Source: Tanticharoenia sakaeratensis NBRC 103193 | Lineage (GTDB): Bacteria > Pseudomonadota > Alphaproteobacteria > Acetobacterales > Acetobacteraceae | Direction: 5' to 3' | Assembly (NCBI RefSeq): GCF_000963885.1 | Contig: NZ_BALE01000015.1 | Coordinates: 1 to 64,000 of the forward strand | DNA length: 64,000 bases | Shown: positions 26 through 15,294 of the stretch, piece after piece | Numbering within the stretch: position 1 is the stretch's first letter | Layout: each line of letters begins with the position of its first letter | Translations under genes and position numbers: made by a program | The notes under the pieces: generated by a model | What the model saw: only the letters and a program-made list of their open reading frames with translations | Database searches by the model: none | What the model was told of the DNA's origin: nothing

Positions 26-214
26 CTATGCCCTTTGGTATGAGTTCTTTCTTACATTTGAGCCTGATGATAACCGGCAGTGTCGTCCCAGTTCACCACT
101 GTCCATTGCAGCCTTTGCCTCGCGCGCGACGTCTACCGGATCGAGCCAGCCCGCTGCATAGCCGTCCGCAAGCGCGTGAGCGTCTATGCCAAGGATGACG
201 GCGTTATCGATCAT
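26..214 (-). pseudogene. Broken 5' end of an amidase-like gene
   Basis: The start codon at 214 shares an ATGA overlap with the stop of the upstream sulfurtransferase gene, so this is the next cistron of the operon. The first 43 or so residues (MIDNAVILGIDAHALADGYA, then AGWLDPVDVAREA) resemble the N-terminus of amidase-signature enzymes, where a DAHALA..Y..G..dPV.V..ea helix precedes the catalytic domain. After about residue 43 the frame becomes unlike that family and stops at 26. The DNA to the left of about position 90 is visibly poorer in GC than the operon, so the gene may be cut by an insertion or rearrangement just at the window edge. The amidase call rests only on this short N-terminus. 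It could be another family. Confidence 0.4.
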
Positions 215-1083
215 GATGCACCCGCTTCCATGGGCAGGGTCGGATCGGCGGCCCATTCGTTGAGCGACCCGTCGAAGATGCGCGGCTGCGGCAGTCCCGC
301 GGCCGCCATGCCGAGTGCCAAGCCCGCCGCGTTGATTCCGCCTCCGCAATACAGGATCGTTTCGTGACGCCTGTCGCTCAGGCCGGAAAATGCGTCGTTC
401 ACGCGGGCTGGTTCGAGAACGCCGTCTGACAACGTTCCTGCGAACGGGATATTGATGCTTCCAGGAATATGGCCCCGCCGGGGCGACGGATCGCCATGGC
501 CCGCGAAGGCGTCGGGCCGAAGCGCGCAGACCAGATCCGCGGCCCTTCCGTTCGTCAGAACCGATTTCACATAGGCCAGATCGACGAAATAACCCGGGCG
601 CTCGATCGGCTGGAACGTGCCGGATATCGGAGGCTCTGTGTCGCCCGTCTCGACATGTCCGCCCGCTGCACGCCAGGCATCCAGACCGCCGTTGAGCACC
701 GACACGGCATCGAGGTCGAATGCCCGCAGGACCCACCAGACGCGCGCGGCCCAGGTCATGTTGAGCCCGTCATAGACGACGATGCGGCTTTCCGGCCGGA
801 TACCCAGCGCCCGGCACGCATCCCGCATCGCGGCGAGGCCGGGGCGCGTGAACGGAAAGGCCCCGTTCGGGTCGGAAAATGTCGAAAACAGGTCAGCATG
901 GTGCGCCGTCGGAATATGCGCTGTTCGGAACGCCCGGACACCCGGACCGTAAGGGAAGGCGCCCGTCTGCTGCCGGGCGATGCTGGCATCGAGGATGACA
1001 AGATCGGGGTCGGACAGATGGTCCTTCAGCCAAGTAGCCGTGACCAGAGGCGTCGGGAACGGCACCGGCGCGTCCGTATTCAT
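211..1083 (-). CDS. Tandem-rhodanese sulfurtransferase (thiosulfate/3-mercaptopyruvate type)
   Basis: 290 residues with two rhodanese domains, roughly 10-140 (ends LNGGLDAWRAAGG) and 160-285. The catalytic loop of the second domain is ILYCGGGINAAG with the persulfide-forming cysteine at about 246. Such enzymes move sulfane sulfur from thiosulfate or 3-mercaptopyruvate to a thiophilic acceptor. The loop is neither the classic thiosulfate (CRKGVT) nor the mercaptopyruvate (CGSGVT) form, so the donor is uncertain. The ATG at 1083 is chosen because it makes an ATGA overlap with the stop of the flavin monooxygenase gene; a longer start at 1122 would run into that gene. No signal peptide is seen, so it is cytoplasmic. 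Its place in a thiM operon suggests handling of sulfur from a thiazole or thiamine analogue, which is inference. Confidence 0.88.
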   Translation of the reverse strand: MNTDAPVPFPTPLVTATWLKDHLSDPDLVILDASIARQQTGAFPYGPGVRAFRTAHIPTAHHADLFSTFSDPNGAFPFTRPGLAAMRDACRALGIRPESRIVVYDGLNMTWAARVWWVLRAFDLDAVSVLNGGLDAWRAAGGHVETGDTEPPISGTFQPIERPGYFVDLAYVKSVLTNGRAADLVCALRPDAFAGHGDPSPRRGHIPGSINIPFAGTLSDGVLEPARVNDAFSGLSDRRHETILYCGGGINAAGLALGMAAAGLPQPRIFDGSLNEWAADPTLPMEAGAS

Positions 1084-2447
1084 GCGTCGAGGGTATCCGT
1101 CATGCGCGCGCGCATCTGCCACGCACCGCGTTCCGGCCGGGCCAGGCCGAGTGCGTCGCGCAGGGTGCCTGCTTCATAGGCGCTCTTGAAGAGGCCACGC
1201 GCGCGCAGCTCCGGCACGACCATGTCGATGAAATCATCGAAGGCGCCGGGAAGATGTGTCGGCTGGATCATGAAGCCGTCTGCGGCGCCGCTCGCAATCC
1301 ACTCCTCCATCCGGTCGACGATCTGCGCGGGTGTTCCGATCATTTCGCCTTCTGTCCGGGCGCCATACCAGCGCCCGATATCGCGTACCGTCAGGTTTTC
1401 GCGCGCCGCGAATTCGACGACTTCACGATAATGACCCTCGACGCCGACCTCATCGAGTGTCGGAAGCGGCCCGTCCAGATCGTATTGTGTGAGATCCACG
1501 TTGACGTGGTAGGCAAGGCGCGACAGGCCCGCTTCCGGCACGACCAGTGCCTCGAAGGCCCGATGCTTCGCCAGTGCGTCATCCCATGTCGCGCCGACGA
1601 CCGGCGTTGTTGCCGGCAGGATCTTCAACTGGTCGGGGTCGCGTCCATGGCGGGAGACGCGCGCCTTCAGGTCCGCATAAAAGTCGACGGCACTGTCGAG
1701 CGATTCATGGCTGCAGAACACGACGTCCGCCCAGCGCGCCGCGAAATCCCGTCCCGCCGGCGAGGAGCCGGCCTGGATGATGACCGGATAACCTTGAGGA
1801 CATCGCGGCACGCCGAGCGGACCGGCCGTTGCCACATGCGCACCCTGGTAATCAACGGCGCTGACCTGCTCGACATCGCCAAACCGGCCGCTCTCCTTGT
1901 CCAGGATCAGGGCCTCGTCGCCCCAGCTGTCCCACAAACGCGTGGTGGCGGTCAGAACTTCCTCGGCCCGCTCATAGCGCTCATGGCGGGGCGGCAGACG
2001 CTCCTGCCCGAAATTGCGTGCTTCCGCATCCTGAAAGCTGGTCACGACATTCCAGCCTGCGCGCCCGTTCGTCATGTGGTCGAACGTCGCGAAACTCCGT
2101 GCGAGATTGTAGGGCTCGTTATAGCCGGTGGACACTGTCGCCGCGAGGCCGATATGCCGGGTGACGCCCGCCATGACGCCGAGCACGGTCATCGGGTCGA
2201 GCCGCGGCGTGCCCGCGCCCCAGCGCACTGCGGGCAAAAAGGTGCCGCCCAGGCTGCGTGGCACCGAGAGCGCATCGGGAATGAAGACCATGTCGAAACA
2301 TGCCTCCTCCAGCCGGCGTGCGATCCGCCGGTAATAGTCGGCCGACAGGAAGTCTGACGCTGCGTCCGGATGGCGCCAGCCCGCAGTCCCTTGCGGGCCC
2401 GCGTTCATGAAGGCCGCCAGGGGGATCGAGCGGGAGGCGCTGGTCAT
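1080..2447 (-). CDS. LLM-class FMN-dependent monooxygenase (NtaA/SnaA/DszA family)
   Basis: 455 residues in the luciferase-like TIM-barrel fold. Family hallmarks include an N-terminal AFMN.G.....WRHPDA, the DPMTVLGVMAGVTRHIGL strand-helix, the NLARSFATFDHMTNGRAGWN segment, and GYPVIIQAGSSPAGRDFAAR in the middle. Relatives oxidise nitrilotriacetate, pristinamycin or dibenzothiophene sulfone using FMNH2 supplied by a separate reductase; no reductase is seen next to it. The start at 2447 forms an ATGA overlap with the thiM stop, and the stop overlaps the sulfurtransferase start in the same way, so translation is probably coupled. Substrate is unknown. The thiM/thiaminase context makes a thiazole, a pyrimidine or a thiamine analogue a reasonable guess. 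Confidence 0.9.
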   Translation of the reverse strand: MTSASRSIPLAAFMNAGPQGTAGWRHPDAASDFLSADYYRRIARRLEEACFDMVFIPDALSVPRSLGGTFLPAVRWGAGTPRLDPMTVLGVMAGVTRHIGLAATVSTGYNEPYNLARSFATFDHMTNGRAGWNVVTSFQDAEARNFGQERLPPRHERYERAEEVLTATTRLWDSWGDEALILDKESGRFGDVEQVSAVDYQGAHVATAGPLGVPRCPQGYPVIIQAGSSPAGRDFAARWADVVFCSHESLDSAVDFYADLKARVSRHGRDPDQLKILPATTPVVGATWDDALAKHRAFEALVVPEAGLSRLAYHVNVDLTQYDLDGPLPTLDEVGVEGHYREVVEFAARENLTVRDIGRWYGARTEGEMIGTPAQIVDRMEEWIASGAADGFMIQPTHLPGAFDDFIDMVVPELRARGLFKSAYEAGTLRDALGLARPERGAWQMRARMTDTLDA

Positions 2448-3238
2448 CGGGCATTGAGCTCCGGCTCGAGAAGGGAGAGCTGATCGACGAATGCCGTCGC
2501 GAAGGAGGCTGATCCCCGTGCCTGTCCGGATGCGCGCGCAGCGGCCTCGGCGTAAAGCGCATGTGCGGCGAGTGTCGCTTCCAGCGGATCGCCGTGCGCG
2601 CCCAGCGCCGCGGCGATCAGCGCACCCAGCGCGCAACCGGCGCCGGTGACCTTGGTCAGACGTGCATCGCCGCCCGGAATGGCAAAGATTTCGTCGCCTG
2701 ACGCGACGTAATCCGTGGCACCGCTGACTGCCACGATTGCACCGGCCTGACGCGACAGGCTGGCGATGGCGCCGAGCGCCTCGGACGTCTGGGCCGTCGT
2801 CTCGACGCCTTTGCCGGTTGCATCCCCTCCGGAAAACGCGATCAGTTCGCTGGCATTTCCACGGATGACTGTCGGCGAATGCACGAGAAGGCCACGCACG
2901 GCCGCGTCGTAGACGGGAGCTCCGGCACCAAAGGCGACAGGATCGAGCACCCAGGGTGTTCCTGCCTGGTCGGCCGCGCGCGCTGCGCGTTCGAGGGCGT
3001 CGATATCCGCGCTCATCAATGCGGCGGCATTGATCCAGACGCCCCTCGCACCCGATGCGAAATGCTCCGGCCAGTCGAGCGCCGGGCCGATGGCCGGCCC
3101 TGCGCCGACGGCCAGCAGGACGTTGGCCGACAGCGTCGCCGCGACATAGTTGGTCAGGCCGTAAATGAACGGTTTGTGGGTCTGAATGGACGCAAGCACC
3201 TGCCTGACGAAAGGCGTATCCCAGGTGATGGTCTGCAT
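2444..3238 (-). CDS. thiM: Hydroxyethylthiazole kinase ThiM
   Basis: 264 residues, the usual ThiM length, aligned along the whole protein to this ribokinase-like family. Recognisable segments are GLTNYVAATLSANVLLAVGA near residue 27, the TPWVLDPVAFGAG strand near 94, PTVIRGNASEL near 122, and the anion-hole/catalytic loop KVTGAGCALGALIAA with the conserved cysteine at 202. ThiM phosphorylates 4-methyl-5-(2-hydroxyethyl)thiazole so that it can be rejoined with the pyrimidine half by ThiE. It is the second gene after the LysR regulator on this strand and the first of three genes joined by 4-base overlaps. No THI-box (TPP riboswitch) consensus was seen in the 118 bases upstream. This enzyme ties the operon to the thiaminase operon on the other strand. 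Confidence 0.95.
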   Translation of the reverse strand: MQTITWDTPFVRQVLASIQTHKPFIYGLTNYVAATLSANVLLAVGAGPAIGPALDWPEHFASGARGVWINAAALMSADIDALERAARAADQAGTPWVLDPVAFGAGAPVYDAAVRGLLVHSPTVIRGNASELIAFSGGDATGKGVETTAQTSEALGAIASLSRQAGAIVAVSGATDYVASGDEIFAIPGGDARLTKVTGAGCALGALIAAALGAHGDPLEATLAAHALYAEAAARASGQARGSASFATAFVDQLSLLEPELNAR

Positions 3239-3356
3239 GGTGGTTTCTCCCTCACGCAGCGCGCGCAGGCGGGCAGGTCGTCGTTTCTGCCAGACTAAGG
3301 GCGCGCGCCGTCATTCTCCACGCGTTTTCATCATCCTCCGTGATAGACCGCAGGCA

Positions 3357-4304
3357 TCACGGACGGGGTCTGGCGATCGCTTTTCGACGCTGGCGGAGCG
3401 GCGACAGGCCCCAGTCCCCGGTGTCCGCGCCGCCGAGAATGATGCGCGCGGCGTGAAGGAAACGCAGGACGACCGGGTTCGATTCCCCCGGCCGCCAGGC
3501 AAGCGCCACCTCCCATGCACCCTGTGGTTCGGCCAGCGGATGAACGATGATGCTCTCCCATGCCAACCCGACCATCGCGCTCTCATGAATCAGGGCTATG
3601 CCAAGCCGGTTCGCCACCATGGAAATCAGCGTCATGGCGGCGCCGACGCGATGCACGAGGCGCGGCTCAACCTCATAATGACGCAGGACAGAATGCACGT
3701 GTCGTTCAAGACCCGGTGAGCTTTCCGATCGCAGGGCAATGAACGGCATGTCGCGGACGGCGGGGCTGTCGAGCCCCTGGATACGGTCCTGCCATGCCGC
3801 CGGATAGAGCAGGGCGAGGCGATCGGCGCCGATGCGGCGGCTCTGGAGATCGGGCGGGACCGGCATGCGCACGAAACCGACATCGAGCACGCCTTCCCGA
3901 ATGCGATCGACCTGCGTATCCGATGCCACGTCATCAAACGCGAGTTCGATCTCGGGATAGTCGCGGGCGAACACGTCGAGCACGCTGGACATGGCGGCGA
4001 CGGCCGAGAACGTAAAACCCACGGCCAGCCGGCCACGCTCGCCCGTCGCGCTGCGCAGGCCGCGTTGCCAGACCTGCTCGCTCAGCGCGAGAATGGGCCG
4101 CGTGTCGTTCAGGAACTGACGGCCGAACGGCGTCAGCTTGGTGCCCTGACGACCTCGCGTGAACAATGGCGCGCCAAGCAGGTCTTCCAGGCGGCGGATC
4201 TGTTTCGTCAGCGACGGCTGTGATACGCCGAGCGCGCGCGCTGCCTCGCCATAATGACATGTATGGCCGAGGACCGTGAAAGAGCGGATGAGATCGAGGT
4301 TCAT
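3357..4304 (-). CDS. LysR-family transcriptional regulator
   Basis: 315 residues from the ATG at 4304 (an ATG 12 bases upstream at 4316 is possible). The N-terminal winged HTH covers about residues 1-60, with AARALGVSQPSLTKQIRRLE as the DNA-reading helices and FTRGRQGTKLTPFG as the wing. The co-inducer-binding domain follows (LAVGFTFSAVAAM near 90). It lies between the leftward thiM operon and the rightward TonB receptor/thiaminase operon and is divergent from the latter with 198 bases between start codons. This is the common arrangement for a LysR activator of its neighbours, so it is the best candidate for the local thiamine-responsive switch. The ligand is not deducible. Confidence 0.92.
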   Translation of the reverse strand: MNLDLIRSFTVLGHTCHYGEAARALGVSQPSLTKQIRRLEDLLGAPLFTRGRQGTKLTPFGRQFLNDTRPILALSEQVWQRGLRSATGERGRLAVGFTFSAVAAMSSVLDVFARDYPEIELAFDDVASDTQVDRIREGVLDVGFVRMPVPPDLQSRRIGADRLALLYPAAWQDRIQGLDSPAVRDMPFIALRSESSPGLERHVHSVLRHYEVEPRLVHRVGAAMTLISMVANRLGIALIHESAMVGLAWESIIVHPLAEPQGAWEVALAWRPGESNPVVLRFLHAARIILGGADTGDWGLSPLRQRRKAIARPRP

Positions 4305-4502
4305 GCTCACGGGCATCCTCTTTACGGGATCGCGACCGAACGGACGGCCATGCGGGCTGATGCCCGCGAGCTATCACCGTAACATTCGAATAGATCATTG
4401 TCGCAAGCTCGCAGGGCCTGCCTACTGTTTCCAGACGGCAACGTTTGTCCAGCAAGCCATGCCGGCTCCGTGGCATAACCGGGCGACGCCCGCATTCTCC
4501 TG
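4305..4502. promoter_or_regulatory. Divergent control region, LysR gene / thiaminase operon
   Basis: This is the gap between the LysR start and the GTG start of the TonB receptor. A more AT-rich stretch at about 4371-4402 includes a TTCGAA palindrome and is the likeliest place for the LysR-type operator and overlapping promoters. No match to the THI-box consensus (CTGAGA ... ACCTGA) was found on either strand. Exact -35/-10 boxes cannot be assigned by eye. Confidence 0.4.
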
Positions 4503-6935
4503 GTGAGAAAGATCGTGAACAGAACGAGCGTCCTGACTGTTGCGACCGCATTGTCCCTGAGCATGGGCGCAGGCCACGCCGCGCCAGCAGCCAATGCCGG
4601 CAGAACACAGGATGCCGGGCATCGTACAAAGCCGACAGCGGGGCGTGCTCGAGCCCTGACGGGCGAAAACATCCTCGTCAGCGCGCATGCGTTGCAGTCT
4701 GCGAACGGTGTCACCGGCACCACGCCGGGCGGCGGCATGATGGTGACGGAAACGAGCGCGCATTCTGTCACGACGATCAGCCGCGACTTCATTGCAAAAC
4801 TCGCTCCCGCAACGTCTGCCGCGCAGATCGCGGAATATGCGCCCGGCGCCAACATCGGATCATCCGATCCCTTTGGACTGTCGGATCAGACGGCGATCAA
4901 CATTCGCGGCATGCAGGCCTCCGAGCTCGGTTACCTTTACGACGGCGCCCCGATCGCCGACGTGGATTCATCGATCCCCTATACGTCACAATGGGGCGAT
5001 ACCGAGAATTATCGCCAGATTTCCCTGACGCCGGGGCAGTCACCTCTGGACGCCCCCCTGACCAACGCCACCGCCGGAACGCTGAGCCTCGAGACAACCG
5101 ATCCGGCCATGAAGCGCGGTGGCCTGATCGACTATTCCTACGGTTCGCACATGACGAACCGGAGTTTCGTCAGGCTCGAATCCGGCCTGATCGGACATAC
5201 GGGCCTGCGAGGCTATATTTCCTACTCGAACACGACCTTCCGGCCCTGGCGCGGGGCGGGCATCGGCAACCGCCAGCATGTCGATGCCAAGCTGCTGCGG
5301 GAATGGGGCGAGGGAAGCAGACAGGCGCTCGATATCGCCTTCAACACGAACAACCAGCCATCCTACAACAACGTGACGATGGCTCAGTGGCAGGCGTTCG
5401 GCCCGAAAGGACCCAACAATTTCACGGAGCAATACGACCCGACAAATCCCTCCTCCTACTGGAAGGTCAATGTCGGCGGATTTTCAAACATCATCCTGAC
5501 GGCGCCGGGCCGTTATCAGGTCACGCGCGCGCTGTGGTTCGACGTGCTGCCGTACTTCTACTGGGGCGCGGGCGCCTCGGGCTACGGGGAAACGATCGGT
5601 GCCACGGGCAATTACATCGGGACCGCGCAATTCCCCGGAAGCCTGCAATTTCCACAACCGTCATTGCAGAATGCGGATGGCACGTATCCGGTCCAGGCCG
5701 CCTATTTCGAGCGCATATTTCACCCGGGTCTTAATCTGTCGGCCCGGTATCAATTCGATTCACACAACACGACGACACTCGGCTGGTGGTACGATTATGC
5801 CGACGATCTCGAGCAGCAGACCTACAACCAGTTGGGTGCCGATGGCGCGCCGTCGAGCTACTGGGCATCCCAGCAGCTTCGCAACGCATTTGGACAGATC
5901 CTTTATGGCGTAAACTATCATCTGATCAGCCAGACGAACGGCATCTATCTGGCGCACAGAATGTCCTATCTGGCGGACCGTCTGCAGATCGAACTGGGTT
6001 TCAAGGAGGCGATCGTCAACCGGACCGGCACGAACGCGCTGCCCGGGCCGCAATATCATGTGGGCATGAATACGGCTGAGCCGCTGCCGCGCGGTTCGGC
6101 CAGTTTCCGCATCGACCCGCACAACCAGATCTACGGGTCGGTCTCCACCAATTTCAAGATGCCGTCAGCCCCTGTCTATTTCGACGTCTATGACGGTGCG
6201 GGGAACGGGTCGCCGGGAGGTGTCGGCGTCAGGAACGAATATGCCGTAACGGAAGAGATCGGCTACCGGCATACCGGCGTCGTGAACGTATCGGCGTCCC
6301 TGTTCAACACTGAAATTCACCATCGCAACATCGCCTCGTCGATCTATACGAACGGGTTTGATTTCGGCACGACGATCAATGGCGGCAATCAGCGGCTTCG
6401 CGGCGCTGATCTGGAATTCAGCACGCGTCCCTGGCATCATCTCAGCCCTTATATCGCGGCGGAATATCTCGACAGCCGGATGCAGAGCAATCTTGGCGCA
6501 GCAGGGGTCGATGCGGACGGTGATACGGTCAACGACACTCTGCCAACCCGCGGGCGGCAATCGGTGCTGGCACCGAAATGGACCGTCAGCGCCGCTCTCA
6601 GTTATGACGACGGGACCATTTTCGGCAACGTGATGTATCGCTGGATCGATGCGCAGTACGCTGACTTCATGAACCAGGAGCAGCTCCCGGCGCACGGCCA
6701 GGTCGATACCACCCTCGGGCTGCGTCTGCCGGACATCAGTTTCTTCAAACATCCGCAGATCCAGCTCAATCTCTACAACCTTGGAAGCGCGCGCTATCTG
6801 TCCGGCGTCAGCACGGTCTCGTCGAACGCGCTCGACACGACGGGCATCCGGGGGAGCACGATCCCGGGCAGCAGCCCGTATTATTATGTCGCCAGCACGT
6901 TCGCCGCCATGGCGACAGTGACGACCGGGTTCTGA
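4503..6935 (+). CDS. TonB-dependent outer-membrane receptor, thiaminase-operon type
   Basis: 810 residues from a GTG start, with a signal peptide (basic MRKIVNR, hydrophobic core, cleavage after GHA). The mature N-terminus is short and Ala-rich, then the plug domain begins near residue 85 (TTISRDFIAKLAP, INIRGMQASELGYLYDGAPI). The rest is the 22-strand barrel ending in an aromatic residue (ATVTTGF), as expected for BamA insertion. It would import a scarce ligand across the outer membrane using TonB energy. The next genes are a thiaminase homologue, 3 bases away, and a PnuC-type transporter, so thiamine or a thiamine analogue is the predicted ligand (inference). The protein is clearly paralogous to the receptor at 35264-37732 (shared TTPGGG, SRDFIAK/TRDFIAK and barrel strand pattern). 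Confidence 0.93.
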   Translation: MRKIVNRTSVLTVATALSLSMGAGHAAPAANAGRTQDAGHRTKPTAGRARALTGENILVSAHALQSANGVTGTTPGGGMMVTETSAHSVTTISRDFIAKLAPATSAAQIAEYAPGANIGSSDPFGLSDQTAINIRGMQASELGYLYDGAPIADVDSSIPYTSQWGDTENYRQISLTPGQSPLDAPLTNATAGTLSLETTDPAMKRGGLIDYSYGSHMTNRSFVRLESGLIGHTGLRGYISYSNTTFRPWRGAGIGNRQHVDAKLLREWGEGSRQALDIAFNTNNQPSYNNVTMAQWQAFGPKGPNNFTEQYDPTNPSSYWKVNVGGFSNIILTAPGRYQVTRALWFDVLPYFYWGAGASGYGETIGATGNYIGTAQFPGSLQFPQPSLQNADGTYPVQAAYFERIFHPGLNLSARYQFDSHNTTTLGWWYDYADDLEQQTYNQLGADGAPSSYWASQQLRNAFGQILYGVNYHLISQTNGIYLAHRMSYLADRLQIELGFKEAIVNRTGTNALPGPQYHVGMNTAEPLPRGSASFRIDPHNQIYGSVSTNFKMPSAPVYFDVYDGAGNGSPGGVGVRNEYAVTEEIGYRHTGVVNVSASLFNTEIHHRNIASSIYTNGFDFGTTINGGNQRLRGADLEFSTRPWHHLSPYIAAEYLDSRMQSNLGAAGVDADGDTVNDTLPTRGRQSVLAPKWTVSAALSYDDGTIFGNVMYRWIDAQYADFMNQEQLPAHGQVDTTLGLRLPDISFFKHPQIQLNLYNLGSARYLSGVSTVSSNALDTTGIRGSTIPGSSPYYYVASTFAAMATVTTGF

Positions 6936-6938
6936 GCT

Positions 6939-8426
6939 GTGATCCGGCTCCTGCCTTGCGCGGATCGCATGCGTCGTGCCGCATTGCGCGTCCTGATGAC
7001 AATCGTATCGCTTCTGGTCGGCGCGGGCGGCGCGCATGCCCAGCGCCTGTCGATCCGAAACGATGCGCAGACACCGGCTTCATGCCGGATTGAACCGTCC
7101 GGCCGCATGATCGCGGTCCCGCCGCGAACGATGGTCAGCATCGTGCCAGCAGGGGACGAGACGATCGATACCGCGCGGTGCAATGGGTTGTCCGTGCGCG
7201 CACTGGGCGTATTGCGTGATGGCGTCGGCGCCATGCTGCGCCTGAACGGGCGCCAGACCCGCGTCCTGAACGTGGCACTTTACCCGTTCATACCGAGCCT
7301 GCCTGACGGCAATTTCGATGCGCTGGTCGCCCATGTCGTGGCCGTCTATCAACATGAACATCCCGATGTCCTGCTGCATGCCGCCATGAGCGATCGGATC
7401 GACATCTATGACCCGGCGAAACTGAAGCGCTTCCTGTCCCGTGGCGGCTTCGACGTCATGGAAATCGACACGCTCTATCTGCGCATGCTGGCCGGATCAG
7501 GCACGATTTTGCCCGCTCATCCGGCCAGCCAGACGACATGGCCCGCAGGCCTGGATGCCGTGACGGTGGATGGAGTGTTCTACGGCGTGCCGAGCTGGCT
7601 GTGCCTCGACTTCATCTACATGCGCGACCCGGCGCTGAAATCCGTCCGTTCGCTCCCGGATCTTCTGGCGGTGCTGTCCCGTCATTCCGCAAAGGAACGT
7701 CTGCTGTCCGCCGACCTGTCAGGCACGACGCGCCTGCCTTCGATCTACATGAATGCTTACGCGCAGGACCATGGATACGAGAGCCTGTCCGCGGCGATGA
7801 AGAAGGCGCCCGACGCTGACGTAATCCACGATCTCGCAGCCCTTGCCGCGACCTGCAGTCAGGGCACGCGCAACCCATGTGCCGACGGCACCTTGACCCG
7901 TGCACCTGATGGCGAGATCGACCGGCAGTTCGCAATCGGCGAAAGCGTCGCGGATATCGGCTTTTCCGAACAGAGTTTCTACATTGATCGGTATGCCCCG
8001 AAGGGCGCCACGGTTCCGACCATGATCCCGGTCGCGTGGGGCAGGAGCCCGGCTCCGATGCTCTACAGCGACGCATTTGTAACCAGCGCACAGACTTGTT
8101 CAAACGCCGCGTGCGGGCGTGACGCCGAAGCGTTTACCCGGATGATGACGGGTGCGGCGATGAAGACGTTCATTGCCTTTTCGGAAGACCTGCGCGGACA
8201 CGCGCCGCCCCGGCATCTTCTCGTCGCCACACGGCCCTTCTGGGACCAGTCACGGGTCCGGAAAGACCCGGTGTATCGACAGGTTATTCCGGCCGTCCGG
8301 ACGGCCCGTGCATTTCCGAGCGATCTTGATGGCGCCACGCGCGACACGATGGCGCTGGATATCTGCCGCGCCCTGCGGCGGAGCATACCAAGTTACGACT
8401 GCGGTGATACACGCGGCCCCATGTGA
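6939..8426 (+). CDS. Exported thiaminase I (thiamine pyridinylase) homologue
   Basis: 495 residues from a GTG start 3 bases after the receptor stop. A signal peptide ends at AHA-Q near residue 35, so it acts in the periplasm or outside. Residues 108-470 follow the thiaminase I order of motifs: VLNVALYPFIPS, GFDVMEIDTLYL, GVFYGVPSWLCLDFIYM, SGTTRLPSIYMNAY, ADIGFSEQSFYI, PMLYSDAFVTS and PRHLLVATRPFW. The catalytic nucleophile (Cys222, in PSWLC) and the general base (Glu344, in GFSE) are both present. The fold is that of a type-2 periplasmic solute-binding protein. The enzyme breaks thiamine at the methylene bridge and attaches a nucleophile to the pyrimidine, releasing the thiazole. An extra beta-rich segment of about 70 residues (36-105) precedes the catalytic domain. 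Recognition is from remembered family sequences, without a database search. Confidence 0.85.
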   Translation: MIRLLPCADRMRRAALRVLMTIVSLLVGAGGAHAQRLSIRNDAQTPASCRIEPSGRMIAVPPRTMVSIVPAGDETIDTARCNGLSVRALGVLRDGVGAMLRLNGRQTRVLNVALYPFIPSLPDGNFDALVAHVVAVYQHEHPDVLLHAAMSDRIDIYDPAKLKRFLSRGGFDVMEIDTLYLRMLAGSGTILPAHPASQTTWPAGLDAVTVDGVFYGVPSWLCLDFIYMRDPALKSVRSLPDLLAVLSRHSAKERLLSADLSGTTRLPSIYMNAYAQDHGYESLSAAMKKAPDADVIHDLAALAATCSQGTRNPCADGTLTRAPDGEIDRQFAIGESVADIGFSEQSFYIDRYAPKGATVPTMIPVAWGRSPAPMLYSDAFVTSAQTCSNAACGRDAEAFTRMMTGAAMKTFIAFSEDLRGHAPPRHLLVATRPFWDQSRVRKDPVYRQVIPAVRTARAFPSDLDGATRDTMALDICRALRRSIPSYDCGDTRGPM

Positions 8427-8458
8427 CCGGCTCGAAACAGTAGCGGAGCGATGCGTCC

Positions 8459-9187
8459 ATGACGATGGCCGACTATTTCAGCGTCCATACGACCCTTGTG
8501 CATATCCCGCTCGGCCGGGGCGGCTATGATCTGTCCTGGATCGAGGCTGTGGGCACGGCTTTCTGTCTGCCCTGCATCTGGCTGGCCAGCCGGGAGAGGA
8601 TCGAGAACTTTCCGTTCGGCGTGGTGAACGCGAGCTGTTTCGCTGTCATCTTCTTTCAGATTCAGCTCTATGCAAGCCTGCTCCTGCAAATCTATTTCGT
8701 GGCGGCCAACATCTACGGATGGTGTTGCTGGGGACCCGGCGCGTCGCAGGCCTCTGATAGTCTTCATGTGCGATGGATGCTCGCGCGGCCTCGCGCCATC
8801 GCAGGCATGACCTGCGCCGCCGCCATCGCCATCATGACCTGGCGGATTGATGCCCTGTTCCGGGAAATATCGGCGATGATGGTGCATCTGGGTGCGCCGT
8901 CACCGGGCGCGATCCCGTCGGACCCTTACCCGTTCTGGGATTCGGCGATTCTTGTGCTTCAGGTAGCCGCGATGATCCTGATGGCGCGGAAATTTGTCGA
9001 GAGCTGGATTTTGTGGACATTTACCTATGCGCTTGGCGCCATCATCTATTTCGAACAGGGCGTCCTGGTCATGGCGCTGGAGAATATCGTTCTGACCATG
9101 ATCTCCCTTGGCGGCCTGATGAACTGGATGGCTGCGGCGAAATCCAGCGCCATGCCGGCCGAAGCTTTACCCAAGGTTGTTATCTGA
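8459..9187 (+). CDS. pnuC: PnuC/PnuT-family vitamin transporter
   Basis: 242 residues with about seven predicted membrane spans. The family core is present: NFPFGVVNASCFAVIFFQ..LYASLLLQIYFVAANIYGWCCW matches the usual NxWxxGxx...YADxxLQxxYxxxxxYGWxxW pattern, followed by a second half (WDSAILVLQ ... ESWILWTFTYALGAIIYF ... GGLMNWM). PnuC proteins carry nicotinamide riboside by facilitated diffusion driven by kinase trapping; PnuT members carry thiamine. Being third in the receptor/thiaminase operon favours thiamine or one of its halves as cargo, with ThiM as a possible trapping kinase for the thiazole. Start: ATG at 8459, 32 bases after the thiaminase stop; an alternative in-frame ATG lies 6 bases on. 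Confidence 0.88.
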   Translation: MTMADYFSVHTTLVHIPLGRGGYDLSWIEAVGTAFCLPCIWLASRERIENFPFGVVNASCFAVIFFQIQLYASLLLQIYFVAANIYGWCCWGPGASQASDSLHVRWMLARPRAIAGMTCAAAIAIMTWRIDALFREISAMMVHLGAPSPGAIPSDPYPFWDSAILVLQVAAMILMARKFVESWILWTFTYALGAIIYFEQGVLVMALENIVLTMISLGGLMNWMAAAKSSAMPAEALPKVVI

Positions 9188-11385: not shown

Positions 11386-14300
11386 TCAGTAAACGTCCCG
11401 GCGATAACGCCCCGCGCGCGTCAGATCCGAGACGAACGTATCGGCTGCAGTGAAGCTCATGTCGCCATGGCGCGCCACGATACGGCGCAAGGCCGCATGC
11501 ACGTCGCGGGCCATGCGGGCGGCGTCGCCGCAGATATAGACGTGCGCTCCGGCGCTGAGCCAGGACCAGAGTTCGGCACCATGTTCCTCCATGCGATCCT
11601 GAACATAGATACGTGCATCCTGATCGCGCGAGAACGCCGTGTCGAGACGCGTCAGTGTTCCGGATGCCAGGAAAGACTTGAGTTCCTCCTCGAAATAGAA
11701 GCTGCTGGCGGCGTGCCGCTCGCCAAAGAACAACCACGCGCGGCCCGATGCTCCGGTTACCGCACGCTCCTGCAGGAAGCTGCGGAACGGCGCAATCCCG
11801 GTGCCTGGGCCGATCATGATGATTGGTGTCGCACTCTCGGTCGGCAGCCGGAAATGCGCATTCGACTGGATGAAGACGTCTGCTGTGTCGCCTGAAGCGA
11901 GATCCGCAAGCCACGGCGAGCAGAGGCCACGGTATGGCATCTGGCTGATGCCGACTGTCAGATGGACTTCCCCGGCATGAAAACGCTGGGACGACGCAAT
12001 GGAATAGAGACGCGGCTGGAGCTTGCGGAACAGACGCGGAATATCATCCCGGCTCGCAGAAAGCCGTGCACTCATTAGCAACTCCGGCAGATACCCTGCC
12101 GTCAGGCCAAGACGCTCGAGCATGGCGGGCGACGGACGTCCCAGATCGAAATGACGGGTCAATGCGTCGCGAAGCGGAACAACTCCATGGTGCTTCAGTG
12201 CAAGCGGCGCGTCCGCGGGCAGGCCGATGGCAGATAACGCCGCTTCCACCGCATCGGGATGATTGAGCGGCCATATGCCAAGCGCGTCGCCGGGTTCGTA
12301 GCGCAGGCCGCTTGCGGTCAGGTCGAAACCGATCAGGCGGGTGTCGCGTCCGGAGCAATCCGATGTCAGGCGCTCGTTGCGACAGAGCGTGGCGACGACC
12401 GGGGTATCGCGCTGGGATGTCTTCGTCTTCGGAGCCGTCGTGGCCGCAGTCGATGCGGTGGGAACCAGAGCTGCAAGCAACTGCACCTGCCAGTCGGCCA
12501 CCGCATCTTCGTAGTCCGGCTCGCATTCCCGCCGTGGGACGAGAATTCGACTGCCGAGTTCGGCAAGTCTCCCGTCAAGCGCGCGACCGAAGCCGCAAAA
12601 GCGTGCATAGGTGGAATCGCCCAGCGCGAGCACGGCGTGCGACGTGTCGTCCAGCGGCATCTTGCGGGCCTGCATCCCGTCCCAGAATGCCGTCGCGCAA
12701 TCCGGTGGATCCCCGTCGCCGAATGTCGAAGTAACAAAAATAATGGGCCCGTTCGGCACTGTATCGGCCGAGACGGTATCAAGGCACGCCATGGAAACGC
12801 GCTGACCTGCAGCCTTCAGGGCCTGGGCGACTTCAGCGGCCACTGTCTCGGCACGCCCGGTCTGGGAGGCCCAGAGCATTGTGACGTCGGGGTCGGCGTC
12901 GTCGCCCGGCCCGGCCTGGGCGATCTGCGAGACGCTCGTCGCCCGCGAATAAAGGCCTGACAACAGGCCGTCGACCCGAAGCCGCTCGTCGGCCGTCAGC
13001 GGGGCATGATCCGGCACGACAGGCAGTTGAGTATCGGGAGGCGAGAGGCGCAGGCCCTCAAGAAACCCTGACAGCCAGGTCGTGGCCGAAGTGGACAGGG
13101 GCGCAGCAGGCTGGGCGGCGAGCCTCAGATGCGCGGCAATCCGGTCGGGGATCGTGTCGGCGGTCACAGGCTGGCGCTCCTCCGTCGGCGGTTCCAGCCA
13201 GCTGATGGCCACGGCACACAATTTGAAGCCCGGCTGCAGCGAGATTGGATCGACCGCATCAGGTGTCAGGGCATTGACCGCGAGGTCATCGCCGAAACGG
13301 TCATTCCAGTGGAATGGGGCAAAGCAGACGCCCGGACTGACCCGATCGGTAATGCGTGCGGGCAGAACGACACGCCCGCGACGAGACCGGATTTCGATGC
13401 GATCTTCGGGCCCGATGCCATGCTGCCGGGCGTCATGCTGCGACAGTTCGACGAATGGCCCGGCGTTCAGTTTGTTCAGGCTGTCCACGCGGCCGGTCTT
13501 GGTCAGCGTGTGCCACTGGTGTTGCAGGCGCCCCGTGCCGAGCACGAGCGGGAAGTCGTCGTCCGGCCATTCGCCGGCACCAAGATACGGGCGTGCGAGG
13601 AAGCGCGCGCGGCCATCCGGAAATGGAAAACGCGGACCGGGAAGATAGCGCATCGGATGACGGGTTGCAGGATCGCCGGGCGCGCAGGGCCACTGCACCG
13701 GCCCCTGACGCAGGCGTTCGTGGCTGATCCCCGATATGTCGTAATCCGTTTTCGGGTTTGCGAACCGACTGGCCTCGGCGAAAACCTCGGCTGCCGACGC
13801 ATACGAAAACCCGTCGGAAAACCCCATGGCCTGTGCAACGCGGGCAATCAGTTCCCAGTCCGCCAATGCATCTCCCGGGGGCGCGACTGCCTGACGGGTC
13901 AGCGTCATGGTCCGGTCGGAATTGACCTGAACGCCGTCCGCTTCCGCCCATAATGCTGCGGGAAGCAGAATGTCGGCGTGACAGCCGGTCTCGGAATCCG
14001 CATAGGCATCCTGCACGATGACGCAGTCAGCTGCCCGGAGCGCTTCCACGACGTTGGCACGCCGTGCGACGGTTGCGACCGGATTGGTGCAGATGATCCA
14101 GCAGGCGCGAATTTCCTGCCGTCGCATGGCATCGAACATCGCGATGGCACCGACGCCCGCCTCGTCACGGATCGTCCCCGGCGGCAGGTGCCACAATCGT
14201 TCGGCCAACGCGCGATCTTCTGGCACCAGCGCCGAGCGCTGTCCGGGCAGGCCCGGCCCCATGTAGCCCATTTCGCGCCCGCCCATGGCGTTGGGCTGGC

Positions 14301-15294
14301 CGGTCAGGGAAAATGGGCCGGACCCCGGTCGACAGATGGCGCCGGTTGCGAGGTGCAGGTTGCAGATGGCGTTGGTGTTCCATGCCCCGGTGACGCTCTG
14401 GTTGAGACCCATCGTCCACAGGCTCATCCAGTCGGGCGAGTCCGCTATCCATCGGGCTGCCTGCTCGATCTTTTCCGGCTCGATCCCGGTAATGGCGGCG
14501 CAGCGCTCGAGTGTGTAGTCCGCCAGGAACGCGGGCATCTCGTCCCAGCCTATCGTGTGCGCTGCGATGAAATCGGCATCGATTGCGGACCACCTGACCA
14601 GCAGATGCAGGATACCGTTCAGCAGGGCGAGATCCGTGCCGGGGCGGATCTGTAGGAAAAGATCGGCCTTGTCGGCCGTGGCCGTGCGCCGGGGATCGAC
14701 CACGATCAGCTTCGCGCCGGTCCGCTTGCGATCGAGCAACCGCAGGAAAAGGATCGGGTGGCAATCGGCCATGTTTGCGCCGATGACGAAGAACAGGTCG
14801 GTCTGGTCAAAGTCTTCGTACGACCCGGGCGGAGCGTCGGCACCGAGCGAGAGTTTGTAGCCCGCGCCGGCTGCTGCCATGCACAGGCGCGAATTGGATT
14901 CGATATGTTGTGTGCGGATATAACCTTTGGCGAGCTTGTTCGCGAGATATTGCGCTTCCATCGACATCTGGCCGGACACGTAGAGCGCGATGGCATCCGG
15001 GCCGTGTGTCTCGAGAATGCTGAGCAACCGCCGGGCAGTTTCGGAAATGGCCTCATCGATCGCAGCAGCCACCGGCGGCGCCGTGCGATCTCGTCTGATC
15101 TGCGCACGATCGAGCCGCGCCGGCGACGTGATCGGCTGGTGGCAGGAACTGCCCTTCGTGCACAGGCGACCGCCATTGGCCGGATGGTCCGGATCGCCGC
15201 GCAGCTTGACGATCCGGCCGTCCTCGACCTCAAACACGATGCCGCAGCCGACACCGCAATAAGGACAGGCTGAGCGGGTCTGCGTACGTGTCAT
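11386..15294 (-). CDS. nasA: Assimilatory nitrate reductase fused to a CysJ-like flavoprotein reductase
   Basis: 1302 residues in two parts. Residues 1-700 are a NasA/NarB-type molybdopterin reductase: 4Fe-4S cysteines at 10, 13, 17 and 45, the probable molybdenum-ligand cysteine at 138 (ESNSRLCMA), and the dinucleotide-binding C-terminal barrel near 580-700. A Pro/Ala linker (700-800) leads to a flavodoxin domain at 804-945 (TMLWASQTGRAETVA; STFGDGDPPD; LGDSTYARFCG). A CysJ/P450-reductase-type FAD domain follows at 965-1145 (RLYSIASS), then an NADPH domain at 1155-1302 (GPGTGIAPFRSF; YICGDAARM). The fusion should pass electrons NADPH-FAD-FMN-FeS-Mo within one chain, replacing a separate NasB/C reductase. 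The start is 3 bases after the nirBD stop. Confidence 0.95.
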   Translation of the reverse strand: MTRTQTRSACPYCGVGCGIVFEVEDGRIVKLRGDPDHPANGGRLCTKGSSCHQPITSPARLDRAQIRRDRTAPPVAAAIDEAISETARRLLSILETHGPDAIALYVSGQMSMEAQYLANKLAKGYIRTQHIESNSRLCMAAAGAGYKLSLGADAPPGSYEDFDQTDLFFVIGANMADCHPILFLRLLDRKRTGAKLIVVDPRRTATADKADLFLQIRPGTDLALLNGILHLLVRWSAIDADFIAAHTIGWDEMPAFLADYTLERCAAITGIEPEKIEQAARWIADSPDWMSLWTMGLNQSVTGAWNTNAICNLHLATGAICRPGSGPFSLTGQPNAMGGREMGYMGPGLPGQRSALVPEDRALAERLWHLPPGTIRDEAGVGAIAMFDAMRRQEIRACWIICTNPVATVARRANVVEALRAADCVIVQDAYADSETGCHADILLPAALWAEADGVQVNSDRTMTLTRQAVAPPGDALADWELIARVAQAMGFSDGFSYASAAEVFAEASRFANPKTDYDISGISHERLRQGPVQWPCAPGDPATRHPMRYLPGPRFPFPDGRARFLARPYLGAGEWPDDDFPLVLGTGRLQHQWHTLTKTGRVDSLNKLNAGPFVELSQHDARQHGIGPEDRIEIRSRRGRVVLPARITDRVSPGVCFAPFHWNDRFGDDLAVNALTPDAVDPISLQPGFKLCAVAISWLEPPTEERQPVTADTIPDRIAAHLRLAAQPAAPLSTSATTWLSGFLEGLRLSPPDTQLPVVPDHAPLTADERLRVDGLLSGLYSRATSVSQIAQAGPGDDADPDVTMLWASQTGRAETVAAEVAQALKAAGQRVSMACLDTVSADTVPNGPIIFVTSTFGDGDPPDCATAFWDGMQARKMPLDDTSHAVLALGDSTYARFCGFGRALDGRLAELGSRILVPRRECEPDYEDAVADWQVQLLAALVPTASTAATTAPKTKTSQRDTPVVATLCRNERLTSDCSGRDTRLIGFDLTASGLRYEPGDALGIWPLNHPDAVEAALSAIGLPADAPLALKHHGVVPLRDALTRHFDLGRPSPAMLERLGLTAGYLPELLMSARLSASRDDIPRLFRKLQPRLYSIASSQRFHAGEVHLTVGISQMPYRGLCSPWLADLASGDTADVFIQSNAHFRLPTESATPIIMIGPGTGIAPFRSFLQERAVTGASGRAWLFFGERHAASSFYFEEELKSFLASGTLTRLDTAFSRDQDARIYVQDRMEEHGAELWSWLSAGAHVYICGDAARMARDVHAALRRIVARHGDMSFTAADTFVSDLTRAGRYRRDVY

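Follow-up and report, generated by a model that had tools for sequence, protein, structure and literature searches.

We analyzed a 64,000-nucleotide stretch of DNA from Tanticharoenia sakaeratensis NBRC 103193 (the window), which comprises the first 64 kb of a 101.5-kb contig (NZ_BALE01000015.1) of this 3.5-Mb genome. Its first 9,187 nucleotides carry two divergent operons, and we read this locus as a system for the breakdown of vitamin B1 (thiamine), which would yield sulfur, nitrogen and carbon and would not mainly serve salvage of the vitamin. Our confidence in this reading is about 55%. It builds on established elements, which are the gene content, a predicted fold, catalytic residues, a recurring gene module and the biosynthesis genes of the organism itself. 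One operon encodes a TonB-dependent outer-membrane receptor, a putatively exported thiaminase I-like protein and a PnuC-family porter. The other one, located beyond a LysR gene, encodes the kinase ThiM, a flavin mononucleotide (FMN)-dependent monooxygenase and a sulfurtransferase. An earlier inspection of the sequence (the original prediction) had named these genes and this arrangement, and all of them were found. What bacteria use thiaminase I for has been a long-standing puzzle, and the enzyme has been called enigmatic (PMC5627462). If true, the breakdown reading would give thiaminase I a clear job. The locus ties it to outer-membrane uptake and to a recurring enzyme set, which appears to be the first route for cleavage of the vitamin B1 thiazole ring to be defined genetically. 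It also points to a possible vitamin B1 sink in acetic acid bacteria associated with plants, fungi and insects.

A thiaminase I-like protein in the receptor operon

The plus-strand operon consists of the genes for the TonB-dependent receptor (4503-6935; PF07715, PF00593), the thiaminase I-like protein (6939-8426) and the PnuC-family inner-membrane porter (8459-9187; PF04973, 5e-40), which are separated by gaps of 3 and 32 bases, respectively. When the 6939-8426 protein was searched as single sequence against the PDB, thiaminase I entries were the only matches (6.5e-5). With a profile of eight homologues, thiaminase I was recovered at 1.1e-45 and 1.1e-37, and the best binding protein (SmoF) followed at 6e-10. 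An AlphaFold2 model of the protein (mean predicted local distance difference test score 76.6) was used for a fold search. Here, we found thiaminase I at ranks 1-3 (template modeling score by target 0.76-0.79), followed by maltose-type binding proteins. Both by sequence profile and by fold, structurally characterized thiaminases are placed above binding proteins.

The original prediction had singled out Cys222 and Glu344 as catalytic residues, and it was correct in this respect. Counting residues in the profile alignment, they correspond to Cys113 and Glu241 of B. thiaminolyticus thiaminase I, and both are invariant across the eight diverse homologues. The equivalents of Asp64, Asp272, Tyr16 and Tyr50 are also invariant. 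Among the other residues reported to form the canonical site of 2THI, Tyr270 is retained and Tyr18 is replaced by Phe in the window protein. Visual inspection of the sequence suggested a signal peptide of the usual Sec type, and the protein carries an extra N-terminal beta domain at about residues 35-105. Its score with TIGR04541 (thiaminase_BcmE) was 44.1 bits, which is below the curated cut-off of 175, and none of the matches in this genome passed that cut-off. Because of this result, we filed the protein as thiaminase I-like and as member of a distant branch, not as typical thiaminase I. Thus, the proposed homology held for fold, residues and export and failed for typical family membership. 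Judging from sequence and structural model, the 6939-8426 protein is an exported, thiaminase I-like protein of a distant branch. It shares with thiaminase I (thiamine pyridinylase; 2THI/3THI of B. thiaminolyticus, 4KYS) the fold, the export and the equivalents of the residues named above (Cys113, Glu241, Asp64, Asp272, Tyr16, Tyr50). It differs by missing the TIGR04541 cut-off, by the extra beta domain and by replacement of Tyr222 and Tyr239 with Ile/Val and Phe.

The same fold is common to binding proteins, and the only Pfam match of the protein is SBP_bac_8 at 0.06. It might therefore be a catalytically dead or an ordinary solute-binding protein, and a Bradyrhizobium homologue is annotated as binding protein. 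However, this identity is very improbable in view of the invariant Cys and Glu, of the thiaminases ranking above binding proteins in sequence and fold comparisons, and of the lack of an ABC permease gene downstream.

Thiaminase I-like proteins are rare. We detected them in one of 385 sampled genomes of the class and in 4 of 398 genomes of the family, and a non-exhaustive pattern scan of 84,980 species (one genome each) yielded at least three loci. The homologues fall into two subfamilies. The long one (window, Komagataeibacter rhaeticus, G768, Chthonobacter) has the N-terminal beta domain and carries Ile/Val at the Tyr222 position and Phe at that of Tyr239. The short one (a second copy in this genome, G557, Bradyrhizobium and a Bacteroidetes metagenome-assembled genome) retains both tyrosines. 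The second copy (contig C94, L007:25-1308, minus strand) is 27% identical to the window copy, keeps Cys and Glu, and is located beside ribosomal protein genes where its contig ends. A third weak TIGR04541 match of this genome (contig C93) was rejected, as its gene is part of a normal ABC operon and encodes a binding protein. In G768, the thiaminase-like gene is followed by a PnuC gene whose product is 61% identical to the window porter, so that the thiaminase-PnuC pair recurs.

The K. rhaeticus homologue is 52% identical, and its gene starts inside the end of an upstream TenA gene. Its other neighbors are a GntR regulator, an aldehyde dehydrogenase, amide-hydrolase relatives, an NMT1/THI5-type ABC transporter and a cytosine-deaminase-like enzyme. 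This region (L010:820-16869), which also carries RutB-like, creatininase-like and DMFA2-like genes, is a candidate cluster for breakdown of the pyrimidine half (hydroxymethylpyrimidine) of thiamine. In G557, about 30 kb of contig C101 (L019, L020) encode ThiM, two FMN monooxygenases, a sulfurtransferase, an amidase, TenA, an alcohol dehydrogenase, a Rieske oxygenase, an amidohydrolase, an ABC transporter, a TonB receptor and a short-type thiaminase I-like protein. The names of the Rieske oxygenase, the amidohydrolase and the alcohol dehydrogenase were read by eye from the sequence. This stretch apparently combines thiamine breakdown genes for both halves of the vitamin. Since G557 is a distant relative that independently joins matching gene types, the genes of the window are not grouped by chance. 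Other homologues have different surroundings. In Chthonobacter albigriseus (L009:9929-11455), a long-type gene lies in surroundings without thiamine genes. On the conjugative Bradyrhizobium japonicum plasmid p1S06B (L006:9944-11242), the gene, annotated as extracellular solute-binding protein, stands alone among hypothetical genes.

A recurring module around ThiM and the monooxygenase

The minus-strand operon starts with the gene of ThiM, a hydroxyethylthiazole kinase (2444-3238; PF02110, 3e-58), which passed the NF006830 cut-off (212 bits vs. 180) and stayed below that of TIGR00694 (195 bits vs. 256). It is followed by the gene of an FMN-dependent monooxygenase of the NtaA/DmoA/DszA family (1080-2447), which is the predicted thiazole ring opener. 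This protein scored 508 bits with TIGR03860 (NtaA/DmoA; cut-off 280), and its closest solved structure is DszA (full-length match, 2.4e-112). The third gene (211-1083; PF00581, 8e-24) encodes a rhodanese-type sulfurtransferase of the 3-mercaptopyruvate type. Its score with the SseA equivalog NF008557 was 140 bits, below the cut-off of 250, and its active-site loop reads CGGGINA (CGGGINAAGLAL) where SseA has CG[ST]GVTA. Because of the missed cut-off and the loop of its own, we call the enzyme SseA-like only. The loop CGGGINAAGLAL is invariant in nine module loci from two phyla.

The fourth gene is the 5' start of an amidase gene (1-214), which begins at position 214 (minus strand); its reading frame continues to about position 29 and then meets a stop. 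In alignments with the amidase N-termini of four syntenic loci, its N-terminus outscored all 500 shuffled sequences, and with those of two other loci it outscored 493-496 of 500. A high-identity remainder of the gene was not found elsewhere in the genome, and a search among plasmids for an insertion element at the contig end gave no match. The interruption may reflect an assembly break or a mutation. With this gene cut and no pyrimidine enzymes present, the locus is not complete, contrary to the original claim. ATGA overlaps were found at the ThiM/monooxygenase, monooxygenase/sulfurtransferase and sulfurtransferase/amidase junctions, and the overlap at each junction from ThiM onward indicates one translationally coupled operon. 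Upstream of it lies the gene of a LysR-type regulator (3357-4316, minus strand), which was identified by a hidden Markov model match. The region between the divergent genes (4317-4502, no strand) is presumably regulatory, and a conserved LysR operator was looked for there and not found.

For a survey of this module, we used the monooxygenase as bait in the 398 family genomes. A copy with at least 67% identity was present in seven of them including the own genome, and in all seven the genes for ThiM and the sulfurtransferase lie beside it. The six other Acetobacteraceae genomes belong to several genera (67-73% identity). Among plasmids, three records carry a monooxygenase at 60-80% and two of them were examined. 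A Paracoccaceae (Rhodobacterales) plasmid shows the order LysR-NtaA-SseA-amidase-HAD-RidA-ThiM, and a Pseudonocardia (Actinomycetota) plasmid the order ABC transporter-ThiM-NtaA-rhodanese. ThiM, monooxygenase and sulfurtransferase occur together in all nine loci examined (seven family genomes, two plasmids). Monooxygenases with 50-52% identity (G467, G490, G775) have none of these neighbors and served as negative control. In 399 sampled genomes of the phylum, no relative of the monooxygenase was found beyond the own genome of the window.

Fuller copies of the module are present in G767, G629 and G558, which have LysR, monooxygenase, sulfurtransferase, amidase, RidA and ThiM genes in common. 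G767 has in addition an FMN reductase gene and G629 a HAD gene. A relative of ammonium transporters was recognized in G558 by a Pfam match and in G629 by an identical sequence start; a gene of this family adjoins ThiM in the module at L041:3842-5215 and L043:3402-4775. Orthologues of the window LysR protein (43-45% identity) accompany the module in four other genomes. Taken together, we see about even odds that these genes (LysR-NtaA-SseA-amidase-HAD-RidA-ThiM, with FMN reductase) constitute a dedicated catabolic pathway for the thiazole ring, which has spread horizontally across two phyla and is fed here by the TonB receptor and by periplasmic thiaminase I as entry enzyme.

Breakdown or salvage of thiamine

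We infer every substrate, the order of the steps and the place of action of each enzyme, and the route would run as follows. The TonB receptor would take up thiamine or a close analogue, which the periplasmic thiaminase I-like enzyme would cut into a pyrimidine adduct and hydroxyethylthiazole (HET). HET would pass the inner membrane, perhaps via the PnuC-family porter. Porters of this family carry out downhill transport and their substrate is trapped by a cytoplasmic kinase; since ThiM is a kinase at hand, HET would fit as porter substrate. ThiM would phosphorylate HET to HET phosphate and trap it in the cell. FMN monooxygenases of the NtaA/DmoA/DszA family cleave C-S or C-N bonds beside an electrophilic carbon, and the DszA-like enzyme may oxygenate C2 of the thiazole, which is located between N and S, and open the ring to an N-acyl enamine thiol. 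The amidase would strip the one-carbon unit left on the nitrogen (deformylation), and RidA, in the fuller copies, would hydrolyze the enamine, releasing ammonia and leaving a ketone. This product, an alpha-mercaptoketone, would chemically resemble 3-mercaptopyruvate, the substrate of SseA, and may donate its sulfur to the SseA-like sulfurtransferase. Finally, the HAD phosphatase would take off the phosphate added by ThiM. ThiM may or may not act first, and the ring may be opened at S or at N.

The original prediction had proposed that the halves of thiamine are imported and reused. According to this salvage scenario, thiamine or damaged analogues would be split in the periplasm, HET and the pyrimidine would be imported, phosphorylated and rejoined by ThiE, and the monooxygenase and the sulfurtransferase would clean up oxidised analogues. 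The presence of ThiM in the locus and of ThiE in the genome is in line with this idea, and salvage has been proposed for Paenibacillus, where thiaminase I is encoded with thiM, thiD and thiE (PMC5627462). However, the genome contains an apparent ThiC reading frame (motif CSMCGPKFC), beside which a thiamine pyrophosphate (TPP) riboswitch scores below threshold, and it has ThiG and ThiE side by side on a contig other than that of the locus. With its own ThiC, ThiG and ThiE it should make both halves of thiamine, so that salvage is not needed. The locus has neither thiD nor thiE. At Rfam thresholds no TPP riboswitch was found in the window, and LysR, standing in its place, is the only regulator present. 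The amidase, RidA, HAD phosphatase and FMN reductase that accompany ThiM elsewhere have no role in salvage. In contrast, the monooxygenase, the sulfurtransferase, the amidase, RidA and the phosphatase offer a plausible ring-opening route. We prefer breakdown because every gene of the module can be given a step, and we consider salvage rather unlikely; the idea that the halves are reused was not supported.

An exported enzyme might also destroy vitamin B1 or antivitamins around the cell, for competition or protection. Such a function was proposed for myxobacterial thiaminase I, which is secreted in outer-membrane vesicles and starves Phytophthora of thiamine (PMC10499793). The apparent prototrophy of the own genome and the second thiaminase I-like gene on another contig would fit in. 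However, the operon also encodes a TonB receptor and a porter, which implies uptake by the producing cell, the signal peptide resembles the ordinary Sec type and depletion does not need a thiazole module. These considerations make this function improbable.

The porter belongs to the PnuC family (TIGR01528, 142 bits vs. a cut-off of 42). It had been called PnuC/PnuT-type, and the first part of this name was borne out (PF04973, TIGR01528), whereas nothing assigns the porter to PnuT. Its 48-50% identity to enterobacterial nicotinamide riboside PnuC proteins, a comparison that involved no PnuT sequences, raises the question whether receptor and porter import another compound such as nicotinamide riboside, on which the thiaminase-like protein acts or which it binds. 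In Sphingomonas, a related TonB receptor is grouped with a phosphotransferase, PnuC and a nicotinamidase. On the other hand, thiaminase genes adjoin TenA in K. rhaeticus and sit in the ThiM/TenA supercluster of G557, the receptor operon of the window is divergent from ThiM, and all catalytic carboxylates and the Cys are retained. The receptor itself shares 33% full-length identity with the receptor in the thiamine cluster of G557. A receptor of G771 was dropped as support, since its identity was 22% only. We consider import of another compound improbable, too.

Several observations weigh against breakdown of thiamine by this locus. In the window protein, Tyr222 and Tyr239 of the canonical site are replaced by Ile and Phe. 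The gene neighborhood put forward originally recurs in part in G557, which combines a TonB receptor, ThiM and a thiaminase I-like protein. Of the nine module loci, no more than two (window, G557) have a thiaminase I-like gene nearby. The remaining ones have TenA or neither of the two. RidA, HAD and FMN reductase genes are missing from the window copy of the module, whose amidase gene is truncated by the contig end. ThiM is also compatible with salvage. Relatives of the TonB receptor have varied neighbors, the porter resembles nicotinamide riboside porters as described above, and thiamine uptake by the locus is predicted from gene neighborhood alone.

Known systems and neighboring genes

It had been suggested that thiaminase I is packaged here in an unprecedented manner. 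This is true for the TonB receptor and for the monooxygenase/sulfurtransferase arm, which are the new elements compared with earlier systems. In contrast, the combination of thiaminase I with thiazole enzymes was already known from Paenibacillus, where thiaminase I lies beside ThiM in an operon with thiM, thiD, thiE and bacimethrin genes (PMC5627462). Unlike the window, this system includes thiD and thiE, is linked to a TPP riboswitch and belongs to bacteria that lack an outer membrane; the window adds the TonB receptor, the porter, the FMN monooxygenase, the sulfurtransferase and LysR. Burkholderia has thiaminase I and, in part, thiM (PMC4475313). There, too, thiaminase I and ThiM share one Gram-negative cell with HET as product, but a linked receptor, monooxygenase and sulfurtransferase are not reported. 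Bacteroides takes up thiamine via the TonB receptor OMthi and PnuT, and genetic evidence assigns a role in this uptake to BT2390 and BT2396 (PMC5613172). This system shares with the window a TonB receptor and a porter of the PnuC superfamily; it differs by lacking a thiaminase and by TPP riboswitch control, and the window porter appears to be nearer to PnuC. A search of viral contigs gave no relative. A literature search, which covered few subscription papers, yielded no genetically defined catabolic gene cluster for thiamine or thiazole. According to a 2018 study on B. thailandensis, thiaminase I reportedly helps growth through precursor salvage. DszA, the dibenzothiophene sulfone monooxygenase (5TLC), carries out FMN-dependent C-S bond cleavage in a sulfur heterocycle. 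The window monooxygenase matches it over the full length and differs by its predicted substrate, a thiazole, and by its linkage to ThiM in every locus examined.

Downstream of the porter gene, we excluded the 9898-10794 gene (NMT1_2 match) from the locus, since its neighbors are an ANTAR regulator and an apparent nitrate reductase. The latter is a frame of 1302 residues (11386-15294, minus strand), adjoined by the ANTAR regulator and the NMT1_2 protein, and it reads as the catalytic part of a nitrate reductase fused to a CysJ-like flavoprotein part.

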